Assembly (NCBI GenBank): GCA_024637115.1
Contig: JAGXFU010000005.1
Location: forward strand, 64,001-128,000
DNA: 64,000 nt
DNA from: Actinomycetes bacterium
Lineage (GTDB): Bacteria; Actinomycetota; Coriobacteriia; Anaerosomatales; JAGXFU01
Reading direction: 5' to 3'
Part shown: piece by piece, positions 21,251 to 52,226 of the stretch
How the letters are laid out: each line of letters begins with the position of its first letter
Position numbering within the stretch: position 1 is the first letter of the stretch
Notes under the pieces: model-generated
Database searches by the model: none
Told to the model about the DNA's origin: nothing
Seen by the model: only the letters and a program-made list of their open reading frames with translations
Program-made: the position numbers and the translations under genes

Positions 21251-21264
21251 TCCGTGCCCTTGGC

Positions 21265-22440: not shown

Positions 22441-22456
22441 CCTTCACAGTCAATAA

Positions 22457-23947: not shown

Positions 23948-24184
23948 ATATCCTCCCGAGGCCAACCGTTTCCGGTGACCATGATGTCTGCGCGCGCTTC
24001 ATTGGACGCAATCGGGAGCGCCTTGCTCAGTTTAGCATGGTCCGTCGTTGTTTGAAGCAAAGTTAACACTCGTCTTGAGCTCACGGTCTGATTTGAGCGA
24101 TGCAGCTCCAGGGCAACGATTCGTGGAGGATGAGATGGTCGCTTCTGCGGTGCCTAGTCGTGTCCGGCAACGACCTCGATCGCC

Positions 24185-25015: not shown

Positions 25016-26388
25016 CGAGACACCCTTTCTGTGGCACGGAGAGCGACAGAGAGTCGATCGCCGAGACGTGAGACGAACGCTGCTTCCCTATGGAAGTGCG
25101 CGACGCGGACATGAAGTGCTCGCCCATTCTCGCCGGTCACGACAAGCATGTGAACCACACGATACGGAGCCGCAATCGCAAGAGTGATACCAATGATCGC
25201 GAGGCCAAGTAGCACGTAGATCACGTAGAGTGCGGAGTTGTCTACGACCGATAGGCGTGCGTAGTAGCCAATGCGCTCGATCGAGATGGTTGTGCCCTCG
25301 ACCTCGAAGCGATCGCCTTCGGCCAAGACAACGCTCCACTCCGAACCACCGGAAGCAGTCACTCGCATCTCCCGGGGCTCGTAGAGCGCAATCATCCCGT
25401 CTGCGTTTGTCTCAAGATGCGGAATGACAACCACCGTAGTAGGAGTGGTTTCAGAGCTCATTTGGAACTCCGTCGATGCCACCGCACCTGCATCAGCCGC
25501 GAAGTCGATGAGAAAGCCTTCTCTCCCGCCAACATCATCGGCAAGCACAATTCCAACACCATAGTCATCCTGATGCACCAGCATCGCTCCATAGCGCAGC
25601 GGTCTGTTGGCGTGAACCCTGCCCTGAGCAACCACCCGGTCACCATCGCGTAGTGTCACCACGGGTGCCACACCGCGCTCGACACCGTCGGTCACATATG
25701 ACAACTCGACTGGAGTAGCGACACCAATTTCAAGCCCGCTCAGCGATCCGTGCAGTGGCCCGACATCAAGCACGCCGTAGGACTCGGGTGCATCAATCAC
25801 TGACTCGCCCTCAACGACACCGAGCAATCCCTCCGAGCGCACGAGCCACCCGAGAGGCACGGCAAGCAGTAGCCCAACGAGCGCCCAGTGAAAGATCGGA
25901 CTTCCCAGAAGCCCCAGCCGGGGGGTGCGAGCAAGCAGGAGTGAAGGTCCACGTCGTGTGCGCAATCGCATCGCGCGCAGGATGCGCTCAGCATCAACAA
26001 GTACGTCGGATGAGCGCCCTTCGTGCGCAGGCAGCTCGATGATGAAGTGCGGGCGGGATCTGAGCGCTGCTACATCAGACTCGAGAACGCTCTCTGAGTG
26101 ACGCCACGAACGCACCGAGCGTCGGGTTCGATCCCATGCGCACACGGCCGTCGATGCTGCGAGCAGGCCGACAAGCGCGAACAGCACCGGGTGTGAATAC
26201 GCCGCCTGAAGCCCAATCGCTCCCGTAATCTGAGCCCACACGGGATGCGCAACGCGCCACGCCTCAGCGGCGACAAGGTCTGTTGCATCCTGCGGAACAA
26301 ACGTACCCAGGAAGATCCACACACCTGCAAGCGAAATCAGCCACATTGCCGTGCGAGGAGACCTGAGAAAGCGGCGGAGTCGCTGCAC
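25012..26388 (-). CDS. resB: Cytochrome c maturation protein ResB
   Basis: System II partner of CcsA (458 aa). The ResB outline is visible: SPRTAMWLISLAGVWIFLGTFVPQ in TM1, a second helix, a long extracytoplasmic domain with GVEIG-like strands (DVGPLHGSLSGLEIG; RPLRYGAMLVHQDDYGVGIVL) and a last helix (LYVIYVLLGLAIIGITLAIAAP). The GTG at 26388 is chosen because AGGAG lies five bases upstream; another GTG is two codons earlier. resB begins 8 bases after the stop of the lipoprotein gene and ends overlapping resC. Confidence 0.9.
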   Translation of the reverse strand: MQRLRRFLRSPRTAMWLISLAGVWIFLGTFVPQDATDLVAAEAWRVAHPVWAQITGAIGLQAAYSHPVLFALVGLLAASTAVCAWDRTRRSVRSWRHSESVLESDVAALRSRPHFIIELPAHEGRSSDVLVDAERILRAMRLRTRRGPSLLLARTPRLGLLGSPIFHWALVGLLLAVPLGWLVRSEGLLGVVEGESVIDAPESYGVLDVGPLHGSLSGLEIGVATPVELSYVTDGVERGVAPVVTLRDGDRVVAQGRVHANRPLRYGAMLVHQDDYGVGIVLADDVGGREGFLIDFAADAGAVASTEFQMSSETTPTTVVVIPHLETNADGMIALYEPREMRVTASGGSEWSVVLAEGDRFEVEGTTISIERIGYYARLSVVDNSALYVIYVLLGLAIIGITLAIAAPYRVVHMLVVTGENGRALHVRVAHFHREAAFVSRLGDRLSVALRATERVSR

Positions 26389-26396
26389 GAGCACTC

Positions 26397-26924
26397 CTAC
26401 TCGACCGGAGTCAGGGGTCGAGCCTCCACGTCGTGGACAAACCACTCGCTGCCCACGAGAACCACGGTGTAAGTCGTCTCATATGAAGCCGCTAGCGAAT
26501 CGCTTACGTAGCCAAGCGTATCAAGACTGAAGTAGCGATACTCCCACTCTTCTCGCGCAGCGATCGTGGCGGTCGACTCCTGTGTCGTGTTCGAGCGAAT
26601 CTCAAGTGATGTGAGGTACTGCTCGATGGCTTTGCCCTCCTGGCGATTCTTCTCGACATACGAATCCACCCCGACCCATTCCTCGGCCGTCATCGCCGGG
26701 GTCGCAACCTCGGAGTTGGCCATCCGATAGGCGAATGACGTCCATGCGAGATACGTGCTGACACTCGCCTCGGGAGTCGTGAGATCAAGGCCGGTCGGTA
26801 TCTGCGGCTCGCCAACAAGGTCGGTTGGTGCGGGCGCGGAGCACCCGGCAACTGCGAACATGGCAGCGAGCAGCACAACCACTATCGCATGTATCAGTGG
26901 GGAGCGAGGTCTCATACCCGTCAT
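26397..26924 (-). CDS. Lipoprotein of unknown function
   Basis: 175 residues. Lipobox FAVAGC places the anchored Cys at residue 28. The mature domain has a helix-rich first half (TPEASVSTYLAWTSFAYRMAN) and a beta-rich end (YETTYTVVLVGSEWFVHDVEA), the outline of an NTF2/SnoaL-like fold. Same operon as resB. It resembles in plan, not in sequence, the lipoprotein at 19770. It may help cytochrome maturation outside the membrane, but that is inferred only from position. Confidence 0.7.
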   Translation of the reverse strand: MTGMRPRSPLIHAIVVVLLAAMFAVAGCSAPAPTDLVGEPQIPTGLDLTTPEASVSTYLAWTSFAYRMANSEVATPAMTAEEWVGVDSYVEKNRQEGKAIEQYLTSLEIRSNTTQESTATIAAREEWEYRYFSLDTLGYVSDSLAASYETTYTVVLVGSEWFVHDVEARPLTPVE

Positions 26925-26969
26925 GTTACTCCAACGCGTTGAGCAGGCGACATCGAGTGCCGGAGTAGC

Positions 26970-28034
26970 CTAGCCCCCAGGCGGGACATGACAGTTGAGA
27001 CACAGATCGTCATTCTCCTCTATCAAGAAGCTGTCGTTCACAGATTCGTGAGGAAATACCTGGAATCTTGGATTGTCGGTTGTCGTCGTTCCGTCTGCTG
27101 TGGTGACGGTGAATGCCTCGGACGCGTCAATCGTGCCCTGCGTTACGTCTCCAACGCTCCGCGCATCTTCGTGGCACTGCTGACAGATCGGCTTGTGGCC
27201 GGCCTGCTCCACGGTGCGGGTAGCCGGCATGGTGTAGCCGCGGTTCGTTCCGCCCAAGGATCCCAACGATGTTGTGATTTGATCGATACCGTCCACCAGA
27301 GGAACATTGTCATATGCGAACCCGGCAGTCTCGGTCTCAACCGGGTGATTCACGACACCGGCCGAGCCTGACAGGCGGCCCTTGTGACAACCGCCGCACC
27401 AACTCGAACCGTACACGGTGACAGCACTATCCGCACCCGTAGGGCGCTGACGCAATAGCCTGTTCGTGGCCGGAGTGAGGGTTGTCGCCTCTGACTGCGC
27501 GGCCTCGGAGGCATCACGCACTCGATCACCGGTGAAGGGATCAACCGTCTGCCCGTCATGCGGGCTGTGGCAATCGCTACACGTCATGAGACCGCCAGCT
27601 GCGGAGAAGACTCGCGAAGTATCGCTTCCGTCAGTCGCTCCACCGGGGACAATGTTGGTCGCTTCGATGCGGTGTGCCGAATTCGGGGTGAGACCGCGAG
27701 CTGCCAGAACACCGTACACTCCCTGACCACCCGTGCCATCGTGACAGCTATTGCAGGTGTCTTTGATTGTCGCCGCAGGCAACAGCATCGTTGAGCCAAG
27801 TGGCGCCACGTGAACGGTATGGCACGTCTCGCATTTCTGAGTACCGGTGCTGTAGCCGCCGTGCGGCCCTTTGCGCGTGACGGTCGGAGTCGGGACAGCC
27901 GACTCCCCCAGCTCAAGACCGTGACACTCTATGCACGTCCGGCCAGAGCCCGCCTCATCATAGGCAAGCGCAGGCGACGCGAAAGCCAGCACGCCAATCA
28001 TGATGAGCGCCGAAATCCCAGCGAACCATCGCAA
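26970..28034 (-). CDS. Secreted heptaheme c-type cytochrome, OmcS-like heme order
   Basis: 354 residues with a cleavable signal peptide (about 1-24, ASPALA). Seven CXXCH sites: CIECH, CETCH, CNSCH, CSDCH, CGGCH, CQQCH, CLNCH. From the second heme on, the order CETCHTVH, MLLP...CNSCH, CSDCHSPHD, WCGGCH, ICQQCH, LCLNCH runs parallel to the hexaheme protein at 41721 and, from memory, to Geobacter OmcS (MLL before heme 2, CHDPH at heme 3, WCANCH at heme 4). The start is TTG at 28034 with AGGA ten bases upstream. Preceded by TPR and NHL genes. Confidence 0.85.
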   Translation of the reverse strand: MRWFAGISALIMIGVLAFASPALAYDEAGSGRTCIECHGLELGESAVPTPTVTRKGPHGGYSTGTQKCETCHTVHVAPLGSTMLLPAATIKDTCNSCHDGTGGQGVYGVLAARGLTPNSAHRIEATNIVPGGATDGSDTSRVFSAAGGLMTCSDCHSPHDGQTVDPFTGDRVRDASEAAQSEATTLTPATNRLLRQRPTGADSAVTVYGSSWCGGCHKGRLSGSAGVVNHPVETETAGFAYDNVPLVDGIDQITTSLGSLGGTNRGYTMPATRTVEQAGHKPICQQCHEDARSVGDVTQGTIDASEAFTVTTADGTTTTDNPRFQVFPHESVNDSFLIEENDDLCLNCHVPPGG

Positions 28035-36744: not shown

Positions 36745-39700
36745 TCACGATGTGTGCCGCTCGAACCACACCGTGGCAGCACCATGGAGCGTGGGCCACC
36801 AGGGCGCAGCTATCTCCGGTGCGGTCGCCGACTGCGACTGACTTGAGACACCTGGCGTCGCGTCACGTTCTGAAGCGACAAGAGCCAGCGCACCGATACC
36901 GGCACCGGCCACTCCCGCCCCGATCGACGGACGCATCAGCGGACGACCGGTTCTCGCAACAAGGGTAGGGTCGCGCTGCGGCTGCAGCGAGCGCAGTGGC
37001 GCAACGAGGCTCACTTTCACGTGACTGACCGTGCTCCACAAGCCGGCGGAATCACACGCGCGTACGTGGACATACCATACTCCGGGTGTCCGCCCGTCAA
37101 CTCTGATCGAGTCATTGGTACCCTCAAGCACCGTGTCCGGAGTGGTGAGGGGCGCGCGATCTATCACCCATGAGTAGCCCGCGATGCCATTTGTGTCCGT
37201 TGCGGACCAGCTCACCGTTGCCCGCGTGCCCTGGAAGCGGGGCTGCCACGATTGGGCAGTCTCAAGCTGAAGCGCGCCCATGAGCGGAGAGGTCATGTCC
37301 ACCGTGACGGTACCGCTCGTTTCGTAGGTGAGTCCCGCCTCGTCGACGTACTCAACTCGAACAACGTGCTGACCCTCTCCTGGGAGCACCAGTGTGGACG
37401 TGGTCTCAAACGGTTGCCACGACCCATAACCGGATCCGGTGTCAAAGCGCATGTCCTGCGCTCCCGTAATGGCCGGAACCGCCTCGATGATCGGCGTGGT
37501 CGCATACGCAGCACCAGCCGCAAGCGTGAAGGTCCCGAACGGCGCCACCGAGTCGAGCCGTACGAGCACCGTCCGTGTCTCCTCGGCATTGCCGAGGAGG
37601 TCGAGGGCCCGATAGGCGACCGTTGTGGTGCCCTCATCTGAGATGAACAGCGAGGTACGTGCGGTCTCGGGAGCGCCGTTCACGCTCACGAGGATGCGGT
37701 CGACGCCAACGAGATCATCGATCGCCGAGAAGTTGAGCGTCACGGGGGTGTTCGTCCAGCCGGTTGGCACGCCGGTGACCGTGGTGACCGGCGCCGTGTA
37801 GTCAACAAGGATGCTGTCGGAGGTGGTCAGAACAAGTCCGGCCTGGTCGCGATATTGCGCAGTAACCGTGCGGGCTCCGTCGCCCGGAAGCGTGAGCGTC
37901 GCATCTGCCGAAAATGGCTGCCATGCGCCGTAGCCGCTGCCCAGGTCAAAGCGCATCTCGAGCGCACCCGTCACGGCGGAGGTGGCAGCGACCGTGGTGG
38001 TTGCACTGCTCGCGGCTCCCCCACCAAGCGAGAGCGAGCCCGCGGGCGCGATCGTGTCGAGGAGGACTGTCGCTGTCCGTGTCTCCTCGGCATTTCCTGC
38101 AAGATCGATCGCGCGATAGGTGATGGTGCTTGTGCCTTCAGTCGAGACTGAGAGGGAGGTTCGAGCGACCTCAGGCCCTCCGTTGTGGCTCACGAGGATC
38201 TGTGCAATGCCGGAGACATCGTCGAGTGCCGAGAAGCCGAGGTTGACCGTTGCTGTCGCCCACGTGCTGGGAACGCCGGTGATCGTGGTTGTGGGGGGCG
38301 CGAGATCGACCGAGATCGAGTCGTCATATGAGGCTACATTGCCGATTCCATCCTGGAACTGAGCGCGTACGGTCTGCAGGCCGCTGCCGGGAAGCGTCAC
38401 TTGAGTCGAGGCGCCGTAGGCGATCCATGAACCATACGTCCCCGTGCCGGGATCGATGCGCATCGCGACCGCATCAGTGAACGCGGCGGTCGCCTGGACG
38501 GTGGTCGACGTTGCGTATGCAGCCCCGCCATTGAGCACGAACGAACCGCTCGGTGGCACGGAGTCGATGCGCACGTAGAACGTGTTCGACGCATTAACCG
38601 TCTCGGCATTTCCCACGCGATCGACTGACCAGTAGCGCACCTGTGTCTGCCCCTGGGCTGAGATAGTGAACGGAGCGGTGTAGGTGGTAGGCGTACCCGA
38701 GCCGATGCGGTAGTAGGTCGCCGCGACACCGCTGCCAGCATCGGAGGGAGTCAATGTGATAGTGGCCGCGCTGTTCACCCAGAAGGAGTCATAGCCAACA
38801 GGCGTGCCGCTACGGATGGTCGTCGGAGCGGTTCCGTCGTATCCAAACAGCTGCACGCGATGATTGTCCCTCTCAGCGACAAGAATCCGTCCTGCGTCGT
38901 CGATGTCGATTCCAAGGGGCCAGTTCACGCTACCGAGCGCTGCGCCGGCAGTCGCGAACGCGGCCACGAATGTGCCATCCGGCTCAAAGCGCTGAATTCG
39001 GGAGTTGCCCGGGTCACTCACATAGACCTGACCGACGCTGTCGACCGAGACTCCCACGGGCGACTTGAACTGCCCATCACCGATTCCCCATCCACCCCAG
39101 GAAGTGACGAACGCGCCCGCCGAATCGAACTTCTGTACGCGGTTGTTGCCGGTGTCGACCACATAGAACGAGCCGTCCGGTGCGGCTCCGACAGCACTGG
39201 GGTCATTGAACTGACCGTTGCCGGACCCTGCGCTTCCGAACGTCGCAATCGCGGTGCCGTTTGTCGCGAGCCGCTGGATACGACTGTTGCCGGTATCAGC
39301 GACTAGCACAGTCCCCGCGGCCTCAAGCGCAATACCCTCTGGCGCAGTAAACTGTCCCGGTCCCGTTCCGACTGATCCGTACACGGCAAGCGGTGTGCCC
39401 GTGGTGCTGAACGTCTGGATGCGATGATTGCCGGTATCGGCGATCCACGCGACTCCCGAGCCCACGGCAATGCCGCGCGGTGCATTCAACTGCCCAACGC
39501 CCGAACCTACCGATCCAAAGCCTCCAACTGTGACACCGCTTGCATTGATGATCTGAATTCGATTGTTGCCGGTGTCGGCAACGAATGTCTGACCCGCTGC
39601 ACCCGCAACATCCGCAGGACTGTTGAGCTGACCCACGCCCGACCCGCGACCTGACCACGAGGCCAGCCATGCGCCTGCGCTGGAAAGCGTCTCAACGCGG

Positions 39701-40632
39701 TTGTTGCCGCTGTCGGCGACATAGATGCCTCCGCCCGGCTTGGCGACAACCCCGGACGGTGCCGAGAACTGCCCCTGCCCGGTGCCCAGGGAACCCCACA
39801 CGACCGCAGAACCGCCGGTATTCGTGCACCGCTCGATGATGTTGCCGCTCGCATCGGCGACGTACACGTATCCCGACGAGTCGACCGCTACTCCCACCGG
39901 TGCCACATAGCGCGATCCCGTGGGTTGCCCGTTCGGCGCCAGCACCGGACCCCATTGCGTGACGTACGCACCCGCCGAGGAGAACTTCTGTATCCGCCGG
40001 TTGTTCATGTCAGCCGAATAGATGAACCCCAACGAATCGACCGCCACGCCCCGAGCGCCATTGAGCCGCCCGTTGGCCACCCCGGCAGACCCAACAGACA
40101 TAAGGTAGGTACCTGCCGAGGAGAACTTCTGAATCCTGCCGTTTGCCGTATCACTCACATAGATGTTGCCGGCTGCATCCGACGCGATTCCCGTGGGCGT
40201 CTGAAACAATCCCGGCGCGCTGCCCGGTCCACCCCAGGTCGCCACATACGCGCCAGAAGAATCGAACACCTGAACACGCTGATTGTCGGTGTCGGTCACA
40301 AACACCCGGCCGTCAGGAGCGACCGTGACGCCCTCGGGATAGCGGAACTGGCCGGCAGCTGTCCCACGAGAACCCCAGAGTGCCAGCACCGTCCCCGCGG
40401 GCGAGAGCTTCTTGATCCTGTGGTTCTGGGTGTCAGCAACATACACGTTGCCCGCTGCGTCCACCGCAGCACCAACCGGCGACGCGAAAGCCCCCGCGCC
40501 ATCCGGCCATGCCGCAATCCCGTAGTAGCTGCCAGCGATATCGGCACTCGCCGAGGAAGGTGCAATCAACCCCGCAGGCTGCATAGAGAACAGCAAGGCA
40601 GCTATGAGCAGGGTAGTCCCCCAACGGCGCAT
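36745..40632 (-). CDS. Very large secreted NHL/Ig-like protein
   Basis: 1295 residues. Signal peptide (about 1-30), then 12 NHL repeats (about 35-625), e.g. GNVYVADTQNHRIKKLSPAG, GRVFVTDTDNQRVQVFDSSG, QVYVSDPGNSRIQRFEPDG, enough for two six-bladed propellers. Five to six OmpL47/Ig-like repeats follow (about 630-1180), each with DLAGNAEETRT or similar and LPGxGxxTVxxQ. A hydrophobic Gly/Ala segment near 1236-1253 and a short tail end the protein. No LPXTG is visible. Probably a surface or extracellular adhesion/scaffold protein. It follows the small secreted protein gene (12-base gap; GGGAG ribosome site). Confidence 0.82.
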   Translation of the reverse strand: MRRWGTTLLIAALLFSMQPAGLIAPSSASADIAGSYYGIAAWPDGAGAFASPVGAAVDAAGNVYVADTQNHRIKKLSPAGTVLALWGSRGTAAGQFRYPEGVTVAPDGRVFVTDTDNQRVQVFDSSGAYVATWGGPGSAPGLFQTPTGIASDAAGNIYVSDTANGRIQKFSSAGTYLMSVGSAGVANGRLNGARGVAVDSLGFIYSADMNNRRIQKFSSAGAYVTQWGPVLAPNGQPTGSRYVAPVGVAVDSSGYVYVADASGNIIERCTNTGGSAVVWGSLGTGQGQFSAPSGVVAKPGGGIYVADSGNNRVETLSSAGAWLASWSGRGSGVGQLNSPADVAGAAGQTFVADTGNNRIQIINASGVTVGGFGSVGSGVGQLNAPRGIAVGSGVAWIADTGNHRIQTFSTTGTPLAVYGSVGTGPGQFTAPEGIALEAAGTVLVADTGNSRIQRLATNGTAIATFGSAGSGNGQFNDPSAVGAAPDGSFYVVDTGNNRVQKFDSAGAFVTSWGGWGIGDGQFKSPVGVSVDSVGQVYVSDPGNSRIQRFEPDGTFVAAFATAGAALGSVNWPLGIDIDDAGRILVAERDNHRVQLFGYDGTAPTTIRSGTPVGYDSFWVNSAATITLTPSDAGSGVAATYYRIGSGTPTTYTAPFTISAQGQTQVRYWSVDRVGNAETVNASNTFYVRIDSVPPSGSFVLNGGAAYATSTTVQATAAFTDAVAMRIDPGTGTYGSWIAYGASTQVTLPGSGLQTVRAQFQDGIGNVASYDDSISVDLAPPTTTITGVPSTWATATVNLGFSALDDVSGIAQILVSHNGGPEVARTSLSVSTEGTSTITYRAIDLAGNAEETRTATVLLDTIAPAGSLSLGGGAASSATTTVAATSAVTGALEMRFDLGSGYGAWQPFSADATLTLPGDGARTVTAQYRDQAGLVLTTSDSILVDYTAPVTTVTGVPTGWTNTPVTLNFSAIDDLVGVDRILVSVNGAPETARTSLFISDEGTTTVAYRALDLLGNAEETRTVLVRLDSVAPFGTFTLAAGAAYATTPIIEAVPAITGAQDMRFDTGSGYGSWQPFETTSTLVLPGEGQHVVRVEYVDEAGLTYETSGTVTVDMTSPLMGALQLETAQSWQPRFQGTRATVSWSATDTNGIAGYSWVIDRAPLTTPDTVLEGTNDSIRVDGRTPGVWYVHVRACDSAGLWSTVSHVKVSLVAPLRSLQPQRDPTLVARTGRPLMRPSIGAGVAGAGIGALALVASERDATPGVSSQSQSATAPEIAAPWWPTLHGAATVWFERHTS

Positions 40633-40644
40633 ACGGTCTCCCTG

Positions 40645-41310
40645 CTAGAAGCGATCGAATGTCTGGTCGACGTTCTCCACCGGATTGCCAAGCACGCGTA
40701 TGCGTGCGTCACTCACCTCGACGATGATCGCATCCTGCTCCGAGTCATCCTTCATCATCTTCTCGAACAAGATGGGAACCTCAATGCGAGAACCCCCTGG
40801 TCCGTCGGGGTAGATCACAACCACCGATGGTTTGTCGACTGTCACGGACAGAGCGCCCGTGTCCGAATCGGCAGTCTCATCCGGGCTCCACGACGAGGCC
40901 CCGATCGAAATCAGGAATCCCTCGACGGGCACATCTTCCGCATCGTTCCACCACATGACTCGAACACGCTTCACCAGGCCATCAGGACTCGCTGCGGACT
41001 CATCATTGCCGTCCGAGGTACTCTCTCCAGGGCTTGAGGGCGAAGATAGCGTACCCGCGGGTGCGCCGGACGCTGTCCCGTCATCGACGGCAGGCGCAGC
41101 CGTGCGTGTGGATGCGGAGTCCAGGCCATTGCTCCCAGAAATCATTGCGACATCCCCAGTCGTGTCGCCCGCGACCAATGGATCGGGTGCGCCACGGCCA
41201 CCGCCGGGACTCGCGCTCATCACAGCCAGTGACACGGCGACAGCGAGAAAGACCGCAGCAGCAGCACCGACCTGGACACCGCGCTTGCGTATGATTGAAT
41301 TCAGATTCAT
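40645..41310 (-). CDS. Secreted or single-pass protein of unknown function
   Basis: 221 residues. N-terminal hydrophobic helix (about 13-32) acting as signal or anchor, a long Ser/Gly/Asp-rich linker and a beta-rich C-terminal domain of about 100 residues (VKRVRVMWWNDAEDVPVEGFL, GALSVTVDKPSVVVIYPDG, AIIVEVSDARIRVLGNP). The domain resembles a carboxypeptidase-regulatory or Ig-like fold but I cannot name it. GGAGG precedes the ATG. Co-transcribed with the large NHL protein, so possibly a partner on the cell surface. Confidence 0.7.
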   Translation of the reverse strand: MNLNSIIRKRGVQVGAAAAVFLAVAVSLAVMSASPGGGRGAPDPLVAGDTTGDVAMISGSNGLDSASTRTAAPAVDDGTASGAPAGTLSSPSSPGESTSDGNDESAASPDGLVKRVRVMWWNDAEDVPVEGFLISIGASSWSPDETADSDTGALSVTVDKPSVVVIYPDGPGGSRIEVPILFEKMMKDDSEQDAIIVEVSDARIRVLGNPVENVDQTFDRF

Positions 41311-41720: not shown

Positions 41721-42635
41721 CTAGAAGTCCAAACCGATTCCGCTCCCGCTCCCATCACGGTGACAACGTAGACACACGCCATCCTCGCTGTTGGTGACCG
41801 TCGCCTGAGTTGCATCGACAGACGTTGGAGCCGATACCAGGAACTGATCGCCTGCGGTGAAGTGAGGCCACGCACCGGGTGTCACACCAAAGTCGCTCGC
41901 ATGGCACGAAGTGCAGTATGTCGAGTTCTTCCAGGCAACCTGACCAGCGAACGAAGCGTTCGGATTCGAGTAGCTGGCTGTCGCTGTCGTCATGATGTGT
42001 GATTCCATGTCGTAGGCATCGGCAAAGTGCGGGCCGCCCACGTCGGAGGTCAGCCAGAAGTGACAACCGGCGCACCATTTAGTGAGCGCAGTGTAGTAGT
42101 CGTCTGTAGAGAGCGGTGCACCCGCGACAACGTCGTACTTGGGATCAAAGAAGTCCTGCGTCTTTGCGCCCTTGAGCAGTCGCTGAGTGAGATACATGTT
42201 GTCCGTCATTGAGACATCCGCAGCATGCACTTGGTGACATCTCGTGCACTGAACGCCCTGCTCAACGCCAAGCCCGTTGTCGAAACTGTTGTGGGCGTTG
42301 CTGTAGTCGGTGCCACGGTAGTTGTCGGGATCACCCTCATACACTTGCGTGTATCCGCCGGCTCCACCCATATGACAGTACGTGCAGGCGTTTGCAGCGG
42401 TATCCGGAAGGAGCATCTCGCCACCAAACCCAGCAGAGTGCACTGCATGACACACGGCGCATTTCTGAGTGGCAGTGGCATATCCACCATGCGGAGAGGT
42501 TCCCTGTCCGGGCAGACCCGAGACGTCGGCCCACGACAAGTAGCCCGCGGCAATCGCAGGCGAAGCGCACACCAAAACAAATGAGAACGCAAGAACCAGA
42601 ACCGCTCCGCGCACCCATCTACGTGTGTCTGTCAT
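41721..42635 (-). CDS. Secreted hexaheme c-type cytochrome, OmcS-like heme order
   Basis: 304 residues. Signal peptide (about 1-29, SPAIAAG). Six CXXCH sites: CAVCH, CTYCH, CTRCH, CAGCH, CTSCH, CLRCH. Landmarks are HGGYATATQKCAVCHAVH, EMLLPDTAANACTYCH, VQCTRCHQVHA, KWCAGCH, YCTSCHASDFG and VCLRCHRDG, the order found in OmcS-type filament cytochromes (CEGCHTMH, MLL...CLNCH, CSSCHDPH, WCANCH, CLSCHRAH, CNKCH; recalled, not aligned by software). The ATG at 42635 has AGGAGGG upstream. Partner of the NHL and TPR genes upstream. Confidence 0.86.
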   Translation of the reverse strand: MTDTRRWVRGAVLVLAFSFVLVCASPAIAAGYLSWADVSGLPGQGTSPHGGYATATQKCAVCHAVHSAGFGGEMLLPDTAANACTYCHMGGAGGYTQVYEGDPDNYRGTDYSNAHNSFDNGLGVEQGVQCTRCHQVHAADVSMTDNMYLTQRLLKGAKTQDFFDPKYDVVAGAPLSTDDYYTALTKWCAGCHFWLTSDVGGPHFADAYDMESHIMTTATASYSNPNASFAGQVAWKNSTYCTSCHASDFGVTPGAWPHFTAGDQFLVSAPTSVDATQATVTNSEDGVCLRCHRDGSGSGIGLDF

Positions 42636-42763: not shown

Positions 42764-43963
42764 CTATTCCTCGATTTCCTCGTCAATCTCGATGGCCGCT
42801 CCGGTCCAACGCTTCATTTTGACATATGAGACCACCGCAAGCACGGCTGCTCCCAACATCAACGAACCCGGTAACAGCGCATATCGCCAGGGCGAAGATG
42901 CGACTCGTCTGACAGGGGCAAGAACTGACCCCTTCGAGCCGGGAATGCGAACGATCTGAGCACGGTTGTTCTGCGTATCAGCTACCACAAACCAATCATG
43001 GAGTTCATCGTAGGCCACCGACGTCGGATAATGGAACTGCCCGTCGTAGCGACCGAATCCTCCGTATGATTCCAGTGCTTCTCCGGTGCTCGGATCGACA
43101 ACGACAAGCTCGAATCTGAACGCATCCACCACGATAAGGCGACCGGCACCGTCGAAACAGAGATCCTGAGGCAGGTCCCACACACTGCCGCTCGTCTCAC
43201 TCGACGTCATGGTTGCTTCCATTGAAGGATCTGGCGCAGGAGGCGTCTCTGGGTTGGCCCAGATCAACGATCCGTCGCCGTCAAAGCACTGCAGGCGCTT
43301 ATTGAACGCATCGGCGATGTAGATACGCCCCGCCTCATCGGTCGTAATCCCGAGGTACGCATCGATCTGCCCGGGCCGTACTCCCCGAGTCCCAAAGTCC
43401 AGCAATCGATCCCCATTGTGGGTGTAGATGATGATCTTGCCCTGATCGAGCACATAGACGCGCGAATCATCGACCCATACACCACGCGCCTGAACATCGA
43501 CCTGCATTTCCCGAATGAACGTACCTGCGGCGTCGAAGACGATGACCTTCTTTGCCCAGGAATCCGCGATGAAGACCTCTCCGTTCTCCTGATCGACTGC
43601 CACCGCCTCCGGCCGGATGAACTGACCCTCGAGGTAGCCGCCCGCCCCTGTGTGAAGCAGCGAGTCAAAACCTCCCGATGAATTGAACACCATGACCCGC
43701 GCCCGAATCGGATCGGTGACATACACCCGGCCATCCGGAGCAACCGCGACCGATGAAGGGCTGGCCAGTTGCTCGTCTTCGGCAGGTCCGAATCCGTAGA
43801 GGGAGCGAACCCACGTCATGTCATCCGCAGTACGCGGAACGAGCAATGGGTTCTCGGCCTGAACGTGCAGAAAGATGGTCAGCAGCCACACGAGAACTGC
43901 CAGCAGAATCGCAATAGCAAGGGTGAGTAGCGAACGGGTGAGTGAGCGGCGATGATATCCCAT
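42764..43963 (-). CDS. Membrane-anchored six-bladed NHL propeller protein (cassette B)
   Basis: 399 residues. N-terminal transmembrane helix (about 10-32), six blades (GRVYVTDPIRARVMVFN, GEVFIADSWAKKVIVFD, SRVYVLDQGKIIIYT, GRIYIADAFNKRLQCFD, RLIVVDAFRFELVVVD, WFVVADTQNNRAQIV), then a second hydrophobic helix near the C-terminus (LLPGSLMLGAAVLAVVSYV) and an acidic end (EIDEEIEE). The second helix is absent from the cassette A paralogue and would pin the propeller to the membrane at both ends. The start overlaps the TPR stop by one base. Confidence 0.85.
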   Translation of the reverse strand: MGYHRRSLTRSLLTLAIAILLAVLVWLLTIFLHVQAENPLLVPRTADDMTWVRSLYGFGPAEDEQLASPSSVAVAPDGRVYVTDPIRARVMVFNSSGGFDSLLHTGAGGYLEGQFIRPEAVAVDQENGEVFIADSWAKKVIVFDAAGTFIREMQVDVQARGVWVDDSRVYVLDQGKIIIYTHNGDRLLDFGTRGVRPGQIDAYLGITTDEAGRIYIADAFNKRLQCFDGDGSLIWANPETPPAPDPSMEATMTSSETSGSVWDLPQDLCFDGAGRLIVVDAFRFELVVVDPSTGEALESYGGFGRYDGQFHYPTSVAYDELHDWFVVADTQNNRAQIVRIPGSKGSVLAPVRRVASSPWRYALLPGSLMLGAAVLAVVSYVKMKRWTGAAIEIDEEIEE

Positions 43964-44727
43964 CAGGGTGTCTCTCCAAGCGCGCGCAGTCCGTCCACCG
44001 CAGCCGGAAGGTCCGCCACAAAACGAAGTGCCTCACGGTAGGCCGCACTGGCGGCCTGAGTGTCGCCTGCCTCGGCATAGATGTCACCGAGTGCTGCCAA
44101 CAGCGAGGCATCGTTAGGTGAAATCACACGAGCGGCCTCAAAGTCAGCGATTGCCGCGTTAGAGTCGCCAAGCTCACGATGCGTGATACCCCGTCCCAGA
44201 AGAATCAACGCGAGTTGAGAGTTGGGCGAAGCGGTGACCACGCCCTGCTTCTCGAGTTCGCGTAGCGTGGACTCGTATGCTGCGGTCGACTCTGCGACTG
44301 CAGCATCGTAGCTGAGAATCGCATCCGCGTAGCGCCCTGAGACCCGCAAGACTTCGGCCTGCGCATAAAGATAGTCCGCAGTCTCCCCCAACTGACGCGC
44401 GCGCTCTATGGTGCTTTGGGCCAGGTCGAAACGATCTGCCTGCGCGTATGCGAACGCAAGTCGAAGATAGCCCTCTTGCTCGAGCGGCTGCTCAATTGTG
44501 GCTGCCTTATATCGCTCGATATCGCGCTCAAGTGACGTACGAGGTGCATCGACGGTACGAAGGTACAGAGTGAAGGCGAGCGCGGAGGCGAGAATGACCA
44601 CGATCAGAAGGCCCGCAACGAGCGCGAGCCAACGAGAGAGCGGATCCGCGGTCGGCACACGTGCCTCTGGGCGGGGCGTCTCCACCTCAGGCGGGCCTTC
44701 AGGTGATGTGCGGACATCCTGGTTCAT
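43963..44727 (-). CDS. Membrane-anchored TPR protein (cassette B)
   Basis: 254 residues. Soluble Pro-rich N-terminus, one transmembrane helix (about 33-57), then TPR-like repeats (EQEGYLRLAFAYAQADRFDLAQ, TADYLYAQAEVLRVSGRYADAI, SQLALILLGRGITHRELGDSNAA, DASLLAALGDIYAEAGDTQAA). Start ATG at 44727 with AAGGAA six bases upstream. Paralogue of the TPR gene at 29200. A strong hairpin lies between it and the giant cytochrome gene upstream. Confidence 0.82.
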   Translation of the reverse strand: MNQDVRTSPEGPPEVETPRPEARVPTADPLSRWLALVAGLLIVVILASALAFTLYLRTVDAPRTSLERDIERYKAATIEQPLEQEGYLRLAFAYAQADRFDLAQSTIERARQLGETADYLYAQAEVLRVSGRYADAILSYDAAVAESTAAYESTLRELEKQGVVTASPNSQLALILLGRGITHRELGDSNAAIADFEAARVISPNDASLLAALGDIYAEAGDTQAASAAYREALRFVADLPAAVDGLRALGETP

Positions 44728-44824
44728 TGGGTTCCTTGACTGTATGGCGGCGCATCTGCGCACCTCACCGATGCTATCAGTACAGCAAGCGGCATGCGAG
44801 AGCTCACACGCATTGCACCGAATC

Positions 44825-44880: not shown

Positions 44881-47800
44881 CTAGGGGAACTTGTTCCCGT
44901 TGCTGGGCGTACCGCTCGTGCTGTGTGTATCGCAACCGCTCGTCGAGCAGTCGCCGGCGGACCAACTCGCACCATCGTTGTGCGAACGGTTAGATACGCC
45001 AGTGAGACGAGTCGATGCATACGGAGCCGGATCCGTGGTGTATCCAAGCAGACGTGGACGCTTCCACGCGTGAGGTATCTTCACGTGGCAGCCGGTGCAC
45101 GCGCCGTAGTTGGTGCCCCAGTGGTCGCTACCCCGGTTGTGCACCTGCGAGTTGTAGGCCCCCACGTTGGGCTTGTGGCACTTTTCGCAGATGGGGACAC
45201 CGGCTGCTCCACTATCGTTCCACGTACCGTTGTTGTTGTAGAGGGCTCCGGTCGTATACGTGTTGTTGTAGCCCGACTCAAGCGAGATCGTCATTGCCGC
45301 GCCGTGCGGTCCAAGAGCGCCGCTGTAGTCGTGACAATCGTTGCAGTAGATCATGGTTGTCGAGTTCAGGGTTCGATTGCCAGGCTGCAATGTCGTCGTC
45401 TGGAACACACGGTTGTCCATCGTGCTCGTCCAGTTCCAGCTCACGTTGCTGGCCCCACCCGCGGTCCATGTCTTGACTACTCCAGTCATGCTGCTGTAAA
45501 CGCGATGGCCAGACCAGGAGTTGTCGAACTGAGTGCTTCCGAGGGTGGACGTCGTTCCCTGACGCTGCCTGTGCGGTGCGCTCTTGGTCGACGTCGTGTG
45601 GCAATCGTCGCATTCTGCGCCCGCACCAGCATCGATGACCGAGTCAACGATCGCCGTTGTGGGGGAGTACGTGCCAGGCGTGTAGTTCGTCTTGTGGCAC
45701 ACAGAGCACTGCCTGGCCGTGTTCGCGGTGAGGACGAAGTGATCGTTTGCCATGTCGTCATCGTGACAGCCGGTGCACTGGGAGAAGCTCACTGTGCCGC
45801 CAAAGACGTTAACCGTCTCGTGATGATTCTCGGCGTCCGAACCGGTGTCGATATGCTCATCGATGTTCACGCCCACGTGACAACCGGCGTTCTGGCAGTT
45901 CTTGATCGTCGGGTGCGCCGTGTTGCTCGTGTGACAGATCGGACAGCCACTGTTCGCTGTACGAGCGTGGATGTTCGCTACATCAGCCACGTTGTGGCAC
46001 TCGGTACCGTTCGGGTTGTTCTGACAGCTTGCAGCCGTTGCACCAGAACCTGATGCGGACTGCGGCGTGACCGTGACTGCATCGATGTAGAGCAGGTCAC
46101 CTGTGCTGTTGTCAGCGTACAGGCGGAAGCGAACGCCATTGACCGTGGCAGGTAGACCCGTGAAGGTCTCTGTGGTCCACGCCTTGCTACCCGCAGGTGC
46201 GTAGTTCTTGATGTCAGTCCAGGCTCCACCGTTGTTGGTGGTGTACTGCACCACGACATCGTCTGCAGCCTCAAGGTTGTCCCAGCGAATCGCGTAGCTC
46301 ACGTTGACCGAGTCGGCGTTGCTGTTGTCGATTCCGGTCTTGGTCAGGTTGTACCACTGCGGACCAGTTCCGACCGCACGCGCGGCGTAGGTGCCAGCGC
46401 TCTTGACCGCCGATTGCACACTCCATCCACCAGTACCGCTCGTCTGGCCCTCCACGAGGATATCGTCAACGTACATGTACTCGGCAAACGAAGCGTCGGA
46501 GACATCGGCGACGAGCCTGATGCTCGTACTCGTAAGATTCGGCAACCAAGCGGCCGGAATGGTCATTTGTAGCTGCTGGAGGCTTTCCGTCGATTGACCC
46601 CACGCATCGAGATCGACGACGGACCCGGCCTCAGATGCTCCAGGCGCACTCGAGAGCAGATACGTATTCGCGCCAGATCGGAACTCCACATCGAATCGGT
46701 CACCGCTCCCCGTGCCGCCAGCCCAGACCTCGTGGTCAATCTGCGCACCGAGCTGAAGCGTAATTCTCGCCGTGGAGAAGCTCGACAGGTTGAAGAGATT
46801 CGTGGAGTCCATTCGCATGTCGGTGTTAGCTGTACCGTTCGTGCGCACCGCTTGGCTTGGCAGGTTGATCCCGCTGCCACCGGTATTGGTCGTTCCCGGA
46901 CCCGCGGTCGTCCAGTCGGTACCGTTGATGGTCCAACCGGTCAGATTCGAGAAGCTATGGGAGTACACGGTCGTCCAGCTACCAGCGCCGGTGTCTGCAC
47001 TCGTCCAGTTGTTGAAGTTGTTGGTCTCGAATCCGTCGGAGAAGCCAGCACCGAGTACCGGTCCGCCCCCGGCAAAGAAGGCCGTGCCCGGAGTCGTGAG
47101 TGACCAGCTGCTCGCATTGTGCTTCTCGGTCCAACCTGAGCCTGCGGTGCGGTGCAGGCCACCAGCACCCGAGGCCACGCTATGGCAGGAGCTGCTCTCG
47201 CCAGCGCAACCCCCGCTCCATGGATTCACGAAGTTGTCGACCTTGAGCTCATGGCAGGCCACGCACACGTCAGCGTCCGGCACCGGAACCGTTGAGAAGC
47301 CGACGGTATTCTTGGTGTGCTCGGTCATCAGATCAGTCGTATGGCACCCGGCACACGGACGCTCGTAGGAGTTGCCCGTCGTGTCCGGATAGTAGTAGTT
47401 CAGCGTGACGCCAAAGTCTGTGGTGCCCCAGTCCGACCCGGAGATATCAGCTGTCTCCGTGTGCGTCGTAACGTTGGAGTCGTAGTGGAACTGATAGGCC
47501 GGTGTATCCAAGGGGTTGTAGTAGACATCGCCGTTGGCTGTATAGCCGTCGTGACATGTCACGCAATCAGCCGTCATCCCAGCGGTACCGCCCAGGTTCG
47601 AGCCCATGTTGTGACACGTTCCACAGTTGTCACTATGAATGGTCTTGATGTTCGTGGACTCATGGCAACGAGTGCAACCGCCTGTGTCACCAGCAACGCT
47701 CGTATCGTGCGCATTGGGATCATGCGCATCGGTCGTGTGACAGTCGCCGCCTGTACCACAGCTGGTGGCCGTAGGCTTCCAGCCCTGTTTGGCGTAGTCA

Positions 47801-50800
47801 TGGCACCCTGAGAGGTTGCAGCCGGCAAAACTGCTGCCTCCGTCACCCTTGTGGAGCTCGTGCAGGTTGAGACTCGTATGACAACCGCTCGTCTGACAGG
47901 AGCCAGCACCCCCTGCTTCGGTCGCAGTGACGACCGGAGCGGTCGTGCCATGCTCCGACTTGCCGGGCATGTCGGTCCCGTTGTGGCAGTCCGCGCATGC
48001 ATTGTTGGTCCAGTTGGCGGCGACCTGCGCGGTCACACCAGCGCTGTAGTTGTGACAATCTGCGCACGTGGTCGCACCGAGCGTCTGAAGGCCCTGATGC
48101 TGATTGTACAGACCGACCGTTCCGCTTCCGAGTGCGTGACAATCCTTACACGTTGCACTCGCAGTTCCACCAACAAACCCGCGCGCCGTGTTCGTGATGC
48201 CAGTCGGCATGTGCAGCGTGACGCTGTAGTGACCGCTCGTGTCGACAAGGCCGACCGCGTCGGGAGCGTTGGTGTAGGTGCCGTCATGACAGTCCTGGCA
48301 CGTGTTCGGGTTCACGTGGGTGGCCTTGCTCGGGTTGACAACCCCGCCCAATGTCGCCACGTGGCAGAGGCCATCAGTACATCCACTGGCCGGGTGATAG
48401 ACCTGATAGTCCGTACCCGCGCTCGTATCGTGACAGCCGCTGCCGGAGTTCGTGCAACCGGAGATGGTCGCGTTGTCGTAGTCAGAGCCGGTGAGATCCA
48501 GCTCGTGTCCATGGCCACCAGCGTGGCAGCCAGCCGTATCACAGTTGACGCTTGCGGGAACCGCGGTGTTCGTGTCGTGACAGGTGTTGAGACACGTGGT
48601 CACGGTAGCGTTGCCCGTGACAGAGTTCTTGTGGATGAGATCTACGTTGTCGGTGTCATGGCATCCGCCACCGCCGCACGACGTGTCGTATGACGCGGGT
48701 GCGTTGTGTACGGTGTTGAATCCGGTATGGCTCGAGCCGGTCGTGTGACATGCAACGCAGCGATCAGTCCACGCACCGGCAAAGCCGTCGACGTTGACTT
48801 CGTGACATGCGACGCACTTGTCGCCATACGTGCCAGGCACGCCGGAGAACGCCGAGGTCGCCTTGAAGTGCTCGGGCTTCATCTCGAGCAGGTGACAGCT
48901 CACGCATGAGTTGCCATCAGTGTTCGCATAACCCGTGTCCGCACCGTCGGCGGTATGGATCGCCTCGGTACCGTTGTAGTGGTTCGCATCGTACGGGCTG
49001 TAGTTGCCGTTGGGGTCGTTGTGCGGCTCAGCGACCAGGCCCGCTGCGTGACACTCCACGCAGTCGCTCGTCTTGCCGGCCGTGATGCCGGGATACGATC
49101 CGTTGTTGTGGCAGGTATCGCACGTGGGGTGCAATCCGCGAAGATCGGCCGCCGGTGCGCCTTCATCGTGGCAGTTCAGGCAGTTGCCGGTATCGGTGCT
49201 GACCTCGTGAACGGTGAGGTCGTGACCCGTGTGGCAGTCATCGCAGCCGCTGATGGCTGAGAGGTCGGTGTCAGCATTGGTGTGACACACGTTGCAGCTC
49301 GTGTTCGAGCCGCCATCGACCGCGGCAAGGTGCAACGTGGCGATGTCATCGGTGTTCGCGCTGTGACAGCCGCCGGCAGAACAGCCAAGGCTCGTCGCAG
49401 ACGCGCTCAGGTCATGCGTGGCCAGGCCTGCGGCGCCATGGTTGGATCCGTGGCAGTCAGCGCATGCGTCATTGGTCCAGCTGGCCGCAACCTCGGCGGC
49501 TGCATCAATCGGCGCACTCGACGTGTGACACTCGAAGCACTCAACAGCTCCGCTTGAGAGCGTGAATGTGTGCTCTGCCTTGAGCGAGGTGGCGTGGCAG
49601 CTCGAGCACGTCTTGTTGGCGATCGCTGTGCCCATGCCTGTCGCTGTATGCTCGGCCAGGTACGGGTCGTAGTGGTTCGGATCGTAGGGCTGGTAGTCGT
49701 AGGTGCCGAGCACGGTGGAGTTGTGACAGTCCGTGCAGCGCGCCTCGTAGTTGTCCTGGAGATAGTGAGTCAGATCGTTTGTCGGCAGGTGGTTGTGACA
49801 TGTGTAGCACATGCCTCCGTGGAAGATCAGTCCAGCTGCCTTGTCGAACTTCGTGTGACAGGTCAGGCAGTCGGCGTTGGCCGCTGTGAGCGCGGGTGTG
49901 GCGTTGGGGTCGTGTGCGGTGTCCGTGTCGTGGTTGCCATGACAATCCGAACATGTCGTGACCGTGGGCACTGCGTTTGGCGTGGTGTGGCACGACTGGC
50001 AACTCGACCCGCGTGGATCCGAGACCGTGGCGTTGAACGGGTCGGTGTGGATCAGGTCGATCTTATCGGTGTCGTGGCACAGCGCGCCGTCGCAGCCGCC
50101 TTCCGTGGCAGACCAGTCGTGTTTGCTCGTGTACTCCGCGCTCTCGTGAGGCAGGCCTGCATCGACAGCGCCGGCCGGGTCGTGACAGGCGTTGCATGTG
50201 TTGGTGGTGTTGGGTGTGTCGAGCCAACCAGCCGGGAAGAAGCTCGCGTTATGGCAGTCAGCACAGCCGATCGCGGCGTCGCCGGGATCCGTGAGCGAGC
50301 TCGACTTGCCGTGCTCGGAGGTCAACTCGAGGATATGGCACGTCGAGCAGAGCTCGCCGCCGGTCCGCGGCACGCCGGCGTTGGCGTTCGAGCCGTTGTG
50401 AGGCGGTGCCGGGTGGCTGACCATGTCAACGACGCCGGAGCCTGTGTGGCATCCGGAGTCGGTGCAGTCCCTGGTCGAGGGGAACACGTCCGGGCCGTGA
50501 CAGGTCAGACAGTCGGTGGCCCAGCCGTTTGAAACGAGCGAGGAATGCTGGCCTCGGCTCGCGTTGGTGTCGTCGTGAATGACCGAGAGGTCATCTCCGT
50601 GGCACGCGCGACAGTCAGCCGTAGCAGCAACGCCGCTCGCGTCGTGATCTGAGTCGATGAAGTTGTGGGGCTGCTCTGAGTTCGCGAGCTGGTGACAACC
50701 GGTCACCGAGCCGTCGCCGGCCCACGTGCACGAACCATAGCCGGGGCTTGCGGGGTTTGAGAACTCATCGAGGGTGTAGTCCGCATAGACCGGGTGGCAC

Positions 50801-52074
50801 GCCGAGCAGCCCGCCGCCTCGGTCTTGGAGCTGGTGCGGCCGTGTTCAGCCCACATCCCGAGCGAGTGGCAGTCCGTGCAGTCGAATCGACCGGCCGGGT
50901 AGAGCCCGGCGGTCTGGGTCGCCTCGTGATCGAAACTGCCGCCGTGATCGGAGGCCTTGTCTGCGTGACAACCCGCTGCGAGACACGCGGGCGCGATCGA
51001 ATCCGGAAGTGCCGCGTAGACCTTGAGACAGTCCATCGTCACATAGCCGTAGCGCGAAGCGGGATTCTTGGTTCCTGTCACTTTGATAGAGACAGTGTGA
51101 GCCCCAGCCGAGAGCGTGTCTGATTCGTACTCGACCACCTGGTTGGTGGTGGTAGGCGCATACAGGTCAACTGTTGCGACCAGTACACCGTCGAGCCACA
51201 CCTCGGCTATTCCGCGATACGGATCCTTGTCAGCAATGAGCTGGAACTTCTGTCCCTCGAAGGTGGTGGTATGTGTCGCATTAGCCACATTCGAATACGA
51301 CATCCGACCAAGACTGTAGAGCGGGCCATAGCGCTCACGCCAAGAACTCGCGCTCGGAGACAGCGCAACGACGTTGGCGGGCATTTGGCTAGCAGCAGGA
51401 TGTGAGAAATTCTCACGATTGGTCGGACGATTGGTTTTCGTGGTGTCGATATGGTGGCAGCCGGCCGTGGAACACAGGTTCGCGTCCGGGCCAGCCGAGT
51501 AGATCGTCTGATCACCGGCAACAACGCCGTGACCGGTCGTACCGGTCCATTCGGACTGAGTCGTGGAACTATGGTCGGCGTGACGAACAGTGGGAGCGTC
51601 AACGTGGCACGCCGAACATGCAGCAACAGAATGGCAGCTCGCGCAGCGGCTGTCCGCTGTATCGACATTCTTTGGCCAGCGGGCTTCTGAGTGGATGATG
51701 TGGATCACCGACGAGGGGGAGCTCTTTGACGTGGCCGAGGCGAAGGTCGCGCCTGACGGGTCGGTGTAGTTCGGCGTGGCGGTCAGGAGCGACTCGCCCC
51801 AACCGGGATGGCAGTACGCGCCGCAGTTGGCACCTGCCTGGTGATATGGGTGCGTACCGAGCATGCCCGGGGCATGGCATGCAGCACATACGGTGTCACG
51901 ATCAACCGCGCCGACATCGAAGGCCTGAGCAGGCACACTCCCAGCCGGTCCTTCATGGCAACCGAGACAACTCGAGTTGTCTGCTGCGAAAACGACAGAA
52001 GGACCAGCTAGCGCCGCGATACATACTGCTATCGCGACCAGCGTGGCCCAAGCGAAACTCGAACGCTTGCCCAT
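44881..52074 (-). CDS. Giant secreted multiheme c-type cytochrome (about 43 CXXCH plus about 13 expanded sites)
   Basis: 2397 residues after a signal peptide (about 1-31). By hand count there are about 43 CXXCH sites, about 11 CX4CH, two CX3CH and a few longer ones. Most CX4CH sites read CxxxGCH (CSTAGCH, CQTSGCH, CQNAGCH). A carbohydrate-binding-like beta domain without hemes spans about residues 240-355 (positions 51010-51357). Two nested beta-sandwich domains span about 1660-2010. The last cysteine pair (CSTSGCD) lacks the heme histidine. There is no C-terminal anchor. ATG at 52074 is chosen because it starts a good signal peptide with GGGAG upstream. Probably spans or coats the wall as an electron conduit. 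Confidence 0.88.
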   Translation of the reverse strand: MGKRSSFAWATLVAIAVCIAALAGPSVVFAADNSSCLGCHEGPAGSVPAQAFDVGAVDRDTVCAACHAPGMLGTHPYHQAGANCGAYCHPGWGESLLTATPNYTDPSGATFASATSKSSPSSVIHIIHSEARWPKNVDTADSRCASCHSVAACSACHVDAPTVRHADHSSTTQSEWTGTTGHGVVAGDQTIYSAGPDANLCSTAGCHHIDTTKTNRPTNRENFSHPAASQMPANVVALSPSASSWRERYGPLYSLGRMSYSNVANATHTTTFEGQKFQLIADKDPYRGIAEVWLDGVLVATVDLYAPTTTNQVVEYESDTLSAGAHTVSIKVTGTKNPASRYGYVTMDCLKVYAALPDSIAPACLAAGCHADKASDHGGSFDHEATQTAGLYPAGRFDCTDCHSLGMWAEHGRTSSKTEAAGCSACHPVYADYTLDEFSNPASPGYGSCTWAGDGSVTGCHQLANSEQPHNFIDSDHDASGVAATADCRACHGDDLSVIHDDTNASRGQHSSLVSNGWATDCLTCHGPDVFPSTRDCTDSGCHTGSGVVDMVSHPAPPHNGSNANAGVPRTGGELCSTCHILELTSEHGKSSSLTDPGDAAIGCADCHNASFFPAGWLDTPNTTNTCNACHDPAGAVDAGLPHESAEYTSKHDWSATEGGCDGALCHDTDKIDLIHTDPFNATVSDPRGSSCQSCHTTPNAVPTVTTCSDCHGNHDTDTAHDPNATPALTAANADCLTCHTKFDKAAGLIFHGGMCYTCHNHLPTNDLTHYLQDNYEARCTDCHNSTVLGTYDYQPYDPNHYDPYLAEHTATGMGTAIANKTCSSCHATSLKAEHTFTLSSGAVECFECHTSSAPIDAAAEVAASWTNDACADCHGSNHGAAGLATHDLSASATSLGCSAGGCHSANTDDIATLHLAAVDGGSNTSCNVCHTNADTDLSAISGCDDCHTGHDLTVHEVSTDTGNCLNCHDEGAPAADLRGLHPTCDTCHNNGSYPGITAGKTSDCVECHAAGLVAEPHNDPNGNYSPYDANHYNGTEAIHTADGADTGYANTDGNSCVSCHLLEMKPEHFKATSAFSGVPGTYGDKCVACHEVNVDGFAGAWTDRCVACHTTGSSHTGFNTVHNAPASYDTSCGGGGCHDTDNVDLIHKNSVTGNATVTTCLNTCHDTNTAVPASVNCDTAGCHAGGHGHELDLTGSDYDNATISGCTNSGSGCHDTSAGTDYQVYHPASGCTDGLCHVATLGGVVNPSKATHVNPNTCQDCHDGTYTNAPDAVGLVDTSGHYSVTLHMPTGITNTARGFVGGTASATCKDCHALGSGTVGLYNQHQGLQTLGATTCADCHNYSAGVTAQVAANWTNNACADCHNGTDMPGKSEHGTTAPVVTATEAGGAGSCQTSGCHTSLNLHELHKGDGGSSFAGCNLSGCHDYAKQGWKPTATSCGTGGDCHTTDAHDPNAHDTSVAGDTGGCTRCHESTNIKTIHSDNCGTCHNMGSNLGGTAGMTADCVTCHDGYTANGDVYYNPLDTPAYQFHYDSNVTTHTETADISGSDWGTTDFGVTLNYYYPDTTGNSYERPCAGCHTTDLMTEHTKNTVGFSTVPVPDADVCVACHELKVDNFVNPWSGGCAGESSSCHSVASGAGGLHRTAGSGWTEKHNASSWSLTTPGTAFFAGGGPVLGAGFSDGFETNNFNNWTSADTGAGSWTTVYSHSFSNLTGWTINGTDWTTAGPGTTNTGGSGINLPSQAVRTNGTANTDMRMDSTNLFNLSSFSTARITLQLGAQIDHEVWAGGTGSGDRFDVEFRSGANTYLLSSAPGASEAGSVVDLDAWGQSTESLQQLQMTIPAAWLPNLTSTSIRLVADVSDASFAEYMYVDDILVEGQTSGTGGWSVQSAVKSAGTYAARAVGTGPQWYNLTKTGIDNSNADSVNVSYAIRWDNLEAADDVVVQYTTNNGGAWTDIKNYAPAGSKAWTTETFTGLPATVNGVRFRLYADNSTGDLLYIDAVTVTPQSASGSGATAASCQNNPNGTECHNVADVANIHARTANSGCPICHTSNTAHPTIKNCQNAGCHVGVNIDEHIDTGSDAENHHETVNVFGGTVSFSQCTGCHDDDMANDHFVLTANTARQCSVCHKTNYTPGTYSPTTAIVDSVIDAGAGAECDDCHTTSTKSAPHRQRQGTTSTLGSTQFDNSWSGHRVYSSMTGVVKTWTAGGASNVSWNWTSTMDNRVFQTTTLQPGNRTLNSTTMIYCNDCHDYSGALGPHGAAMTISLESGYNNTYTTGALYNNNGTWNDSGAAGVPICEKCHKPNVGAYNSQVHNRGSDHWGTNYGACTGCHVKIPHAWKRPRLLGYTTDPAPYASTRLTGVSNRSHNDGASWSAGDCSTSGCDTHSTSGTPSNGNKFP

Positions 52075-52168
52075 ATGGATGCACTCCCAGTCCGTGTCGC
52101 GTTCCCCCGCGTTTACCCCAACGCCGAGAAACACACTCGAAAACGCACGCGTCCGCACGCCTCCCCAA

Positions 52169-52226
52169 CTCAACGAGCTTTGCCCCAACCCTCCAGTATC
52201 GAAGGGCTCACATCACGAGAATCAAT
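52169..52226. repeat. Direct repeat copy A in the giant cytochrome leader
   Basis: The first 23 bases (plus strand CTCAACGAGCTTTGCCCCAA and following) match copy B at 20 of 23 positions; similarity continues more weakly to a shared ...CATC.CGAG block. The copy lies inside the presumed 5' leader of the giant cytochrome, about 95 bases before its start. I recognise no known riboswitch. Confidence 0.5.

Follow-up and report, generated by a model that had tools for sequence, protein, structure and literature searches.

A secreted hexaheme cytochrome conserved in Anaerosomatales and its relation to the filament cytochrome OmcS

The hexaheme gene, its family and its neighbours

The window analysed here is a stretch of 64,000 nucleotides (contig JAGXFU010000005.1, positions 64,001 to 128,000) from an Actinomycetes bacterium genome (G000) of 2.3 Mb in 17 contigs, 92% complete. 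It belongs to the Anaerosomatales (OPB41 lineage, Coriobacteriia), and its relatives are Coriobacteriia and Anaerosomatales MAGs, in agreement with the Gram-positive-type genome of the original prediction. At 41721-42635 on the minus strand, as for all window features described below, an open reading frame of 304 aa begins with ATG at 42635, AGGAGG lying just 5', and encodes a secreted hexaheme c-type cytochrome according to its six CXXCH, its Paired_CXXCH_1 match and its order-wide family. Its closest orthologues are up to 61-62% identical and the frame is therefore a real gene; over the window, 87 CXXCH DNA patterns were observed for 5.7 expected by chance. Residues 1-30 (42546-42635; ...SPAIAA) form a Sec signal peptide without lipobox, supported by a common hydrophobic stretch ending in AxA in the homologues. 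Both the predicted signal peptide, ending ...SPAIA, and the predicted six CXXCH sites with their listed neighbours are indeed present, and the protein reads as small, secreted and without membrane anchor.

Pfam and NCBIfam assigned the hexaheme to the generic doubled-CXXCH class only: the cut-offs of Paired_CXXCH_1 (PF09699/TIGR01905) were passed (38.5 bits vs 20.6; 39.7 vs 25.2), and with 26.7 bits (cut-off 192) and 26.8 bits (cut-off 325) it is a member of neither the curated DmsE nor the curated GSU2203 decaheme family. An AlphaFold model of the monomer, hemes not included, was obtained with moderate confidence (pLDDT 71.4, pTM 0.74), an earlier run with 21 sequences (pLDDT 39.6) being set aside, and a Foldseek search of this model against the PDB returned chance matches alone and no fold relative. 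Foldseek-type searches with OmcS and OmcE are also reported to retrieve just themselves and close homologues, relations among folds of this kind being missed (PMC9473688).

Within the order, the window protein is matched to some degree in 60 of 69 genomes, and its family profile at E<=1e-15 in 58 of 69, counting partial matches to the wider superfamily. In a sample of the phylum, 32 of 397 genomes match the family, and none of these is among the listed genomes of the same class from outside Anaerosomatales. A first scan of the genome contigs with the single protein as query gave no match. G000 encodes many multihemes together with cytochrome c maturation (CcsB), the first OPB41 isolates, each with 17-18 multihemes, are described as having pili-like appendages and a wall of Gram-positive type, and Anaerosomatales isolates include Fe(III)-, sulfur- and thiosulfate-respiring strains (PMC9686372). 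At three loci (L019, L034, L063) the hexaheme gene occurs in tandem, in two or more adjacent copies, which recalls the omcS/omcT pair. At three others (L047, L066, L065) the hexaheme module makes up the C-terminal part of longer frames of 657-878 aa, which points to fusion with further extracytoplasmic domains.

Propeller and TPR genes had been predicted beside the hexaheme, and both adjoin it. The NHL beta-propeller protein (42764-43963; Pfam and gene order in relatives) has a hydrophobic stretch at either end and is probably membrane-anchored; the TPR gene (43963-44763; gene order in relatives) overlaps the NHL start and its product has an N-terminal hydrophobic stretch. Of the 34 homologous loci where 2.5 kb or more of upstream sequence was available, 25 have an NHL gene on the same strand directly before the hexaheme, and in 19 a TPR gene precedes the NHL gene in turn. 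The loci without the TPR-NHL unit are mostly distant paralogues, about 27-31% identical; a closer one, L145 (61% identity), also lacks it. The gap of 129 bp between hexaheme and NHL contains no recognisable promoter or terminator, and the hexaheme could be regulated separately from its neighbours. Its immediate operon contains no enzyme gene.

Upstream of this unit, at 44881-52188, lies a giant multiheme cytochrome with 43 CXXCH in up to 2435 aa, for which no curated family reached its cut-off, related giants being found 5' of the unit in some relatives. A Ser/Asp-rich secreted or anchored protein (40645-41310) is kept beside the unit in the closest relatives, as is, next to the hexaheme, a large protein of 1295 aa (36745-40632) combining an N-terminal NHL propeller with OmpL47-type/Ig-like domains. 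A second cytochrome cluster at 20234-28034 encodes NrfH-like 11-heme and DmsE-like 14-heme proteins, CcsB, a maturation protein that is probably of ResB type, and a 7-heme protein. In several relatives the hexaheme unit stands in one cluster with the giant, 11-heme and 14-heme cytochromes, which lie apart from one another in the window.

Heme ligands and comparison with OmcS

Placed from the sequence and its alignment, the hemes follow one another from heme 1 (CAVCH, 42447-42461) through heme 2 (CTYCH, 42372-42386), heme 3 (CTRCH, 42234-42248, with His137 at +3), heme 4 (WCAGCH, 42060-42074) and heme 5 (CTSCH, 41901-41915) to heme 6 (CLRCH, 41760-41774). The +3 His of heme 1, His66, is a candidate distal ligand conserved at the position of OmcS His16, presumably the donor of the inter-subunit ligand of heme 5 in that protein. 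Heme 5 itself is without the +3 His of OmcS, and an invariant PH258 follows 13 residues downstream. The remaining distal candidates in the alignment are the invariant His49 (SPHGGY, 42489-42491), His115 (42291-42293) and His258 (PHFT, 41862-41864), and His213 (SHIM, 41997-41999), which is invariant in the 21-sequence ortholog alignment (A1) and present at 88% in the 73-sequence alignment of the wider family (A2).

In A1 exactly 12 His are invariant, namely the six CXXCH His and H49, H66, H115, H137, H213 and H258. With six proximal and six distal His, all six hemes are therefore probably bis-His. The same 12 are kept at 88-100% in A2, and six of the 25 listed hexaheme family members have only 12 His in the compared chain. 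OmcS likewise has 12 His ligands, all of its hemes being bis-His, with 11 of the 12 intra-chain and one, on heme 5, provided by the neighbouring subunit (PMC6584659). This ligand count is found by conservation in the window hexaheme, and the six distal His of OmcS come in the matching order; a monomer would equally need six of them.

Further likenesses to OmcS (6EF8/6NEF; its PDB sequence, an exact match, served as reference) are the six c-type hemes, the secretion, CxxCHxxH at hemes 1 and 3 and WCxxCH at heme 4. The OmcS-like heme order of the original prediction holds over hemes 1-4 (CxxCHxxH, LL, CxxCH, CxxCHxxH, WCxxCH) and breaks down at heme 5: the CxxCHxxH form is found in OmcS at hemes 1, 3 and 5 (pattern DSDSDS), whereas 58 of 61 window-family members, counted among 341 multiheme ORFs in loci around matches, a set enriched for relatives, have it at hemes 1 and 3 only (DSDSSS). 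Moreover, the agreement at hemes 1-4 is largely generic, since both proteins match the Paired_CXXCH unit in Pfam. The mature window hexaheme has about 274 aa, compared with 407 aa for OmcS of Geobacter sulfurreducens, and its model has no fold match.

Four comparisons speak against the homology to OmcS proposed for this frame, and no significant full-length sequence or profile similarity was found. With phmmer, the window protein had no PDB match at E<=1; the A1 profile left OmcS undetected at E<=10 and reached OmcE (7TFS), a multiheme bis-His filament cytochrome with four hemes, at 5.6; hhalign of A1 against OmcS gave 17.5%; in BLASTP against OmcS the heme motifs alone aligned. The best PDB match of A1, which also matched reaction-centre cytochromes, was 6I5B of Gram-positive source (E 2e-4), which we take to be OcwA, a nonaheme terminal reductase; it differs in its nine hemes, and the match is confined to some 90 residues that surround a CXXCH pair. 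A hit of the A2 profile to OmcS (2.4e-8) was rejected as homology and attributed to heme-motif noise, because unrelated photosynthetic reaction-centre cytochromes score equally (2.2e-8).

Despite similar motifs at hemes 1-4 and 6, six hemes and secretion, it is very improbable that the window hexaheme is a true OmcS orthologue, given these search failures, the different heme-5 motif and a genuine OmcS-type gene at a separate locus of G000. That gene belongs to the other hexaheme family of the order, whose profile reaches OmcS at 7e-13 whereas A1 misses it. The window hexaheme stands outside the OmcS family proper and is at most a superfamily relative.

An OmcS-like hexaheme family in the same order

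With OmcS as query against the genomes of the order, a full-length match was obtained in G048 (E 4.5e-7), from which a family alignment (A3) was built. At E<=1e-6, A3 is matched in 49 of the 69 Anaerosomatales genomes; as a few matches are partial, about 45 of 69 hold a substantial copy. Searched against the PDB, the A3 profile places OmcS on top and over its full length (7.2e-13), followed by OmcE (6.8e-4) with no other match below 0.01, and 44 of 46 members have the DSDSDS pattern, as in OmcS. The copy of G000 (contig C1:56656-57966, E 3e-105; L230:9654-10973, L192) lies immediately 3' of a NiFe hydrogenase large subunit gene, in an operon running from a 20-heme cytochrome through TPR, NHL, hydrogenase and OmcS-like genes to a 13-heme giant. 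The idea that a Gram-positive genome encodes an OmcS-type cytochrome thereby holds, though for this gene rather than the window gene. In the literature searched, to which a 2023 nanowire survey in Cell did not belong, no report of OmcS homologues in Anaerosomatales was found.

The gene directly upstream of the A3 hexaheme encodes an enzyme in 20 of 20 loci examined, a NiFe hydrogenase in 13 and a molybdopterin oxidoreductase with FeS subunit in 7. On contigs that reach far enough, the usual order is 20-heme cytochrome, TPR, NHL, enzyme and OmcS-like hexaheme, often with a 13-heme giant next. A3 thus differs from the window family in this adjoining enzyme, in its DSDSDS pattern, in being roughly 100-140 residues longer and in its detection by the OmcS search. 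On the other hand, both are present in the same genome with a PHGGY-like start and TPR/NHL neighbours, and they share the six-distal-His scheme and the TPR > NHL > hexaheme slot.

The distal His of the two families pair in order (window/A3: H49/H9, H66/H26, H115/H135, H137/H168, H213/H292, H258/H359). In hhalign, A2 against A3 gave 99.4%, the register being kept over hemes 1-5; of three multiheme controls, two scored lower (14-heme 97.9%, 11-heme 95.1%). The alignment across A2, A3 and OmcS rests on the heme motifs, and with CXXCH masked the A2-A3 value drops to 14%. Masking also removes the A3-OmcS profile match (1.4%) and is therefore a conservative control that does not disprove remote homology. 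The 7-heme family (26970-28034), the best profile match to the hexaheme, retains 97% under masking (99.8% unmasked) and differs by an extra N-terminal heme and another gene context. We conclude that the window family is closest, by profile comparison, to this 7-heme family of the same window.

This one-to-one His correspondence and preserved register, together with the similar gene slot, the lack of an anchor and the pili-like appendages on isolates of the order (PMC9686372), would suit polymerisation of the window hexaheme into its own conductive filament, in which His66 would bind heme 5 of the adjacent chain, the arrangement known from OmcS. We regard such a filament as unlikely, as the ortholog profile has no significant OmcS match, the hhalign signal largely disappears on masking, the heme-5 motif is unlike that of OmcS and the 12 His are equally required by a monomer. 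The distribution of both genes also argues against it: the window family is present in G004 and G008, and the OmcS-like gene in G008 only. We infer that these genomes are Anaerosoma tenue and Parvivirga hydrogeniphila respectively. The former does not reduce Fe(III), and the latter reduces it obligately and bears appendages induced by ferrihydrite (PMC9686372). The OmcS-like gene, rather than the window gene, is therefore favoured as the Fe(III)-linked one, a hint only, coming from two strains of presumed identity. The OmcS-like gene is the better Gram-positive nanowire candidate.

Proposed role and significance

The window hexaheme is probably a compact extracytoplasmic relay cytochrome, Anaerosomatales-wide and belonging to the paired-CXXCH superfamily rather than to OmcS proper. 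The mature chain would consist of three modules with two hemes each (His, CxxCHxxH or CxxCH...PH, LL/FL, CxxCH), holding six bis-His low-spin hemes, the ligand set being supported by conservation and the heme packing presumed. The protein probably relays electrons outside the membrane, within a conduit of the Gram-positive wall for extracellular electron transfer. To judge from the conserved gene order, its tethering or assembly probably falls to the membrane-anchored TPR and NHL proteins encoded with it, and electrons may pass between it and the giant neighbouring cytochromes.

A protein so small, secreted and unanchored might instead act outside any extracellular conduit, as a soluble shuttle or donor to a terminal enzyme such as a sulfur, thiosulfate or Fe reductase. 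The absence of an enzyme from the immediate operon would fit this, as would sulfur and thiosulfate respiration by one isolate carrying the family, if G004 is that isolate; such a shuttle is rather doubtful considering the consistent partnership with membrane-anchored NHL/TPR proteins and giant multihemes. It is more speculative still, and decidedly unlikely, that Anaerosomatales build two hexaheme filaments, the compact family forming one and the OmcS-homologous family, wired to the hydrogenase or molybdoenzyme, the other, both tethered or assembled across the wall by TPR/NHL proteins.

In the literature searched, cytochrome nanowire structures come from Geobacter and two archaea only. For a first test, the choice of gene is corrected by these results, the OmcS-like gene at C1:56656-57966 coming ahead of the window hexaheme. 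Taken together, a conserved TPR-NHL-hexaheme unit and a true OmcS relative beside a hydrogenase occur in one Gram-positive order with cultured members, and the existence of OmcS-type filaments beyond Gram-negatives and archaea thereby becomes directly testable.
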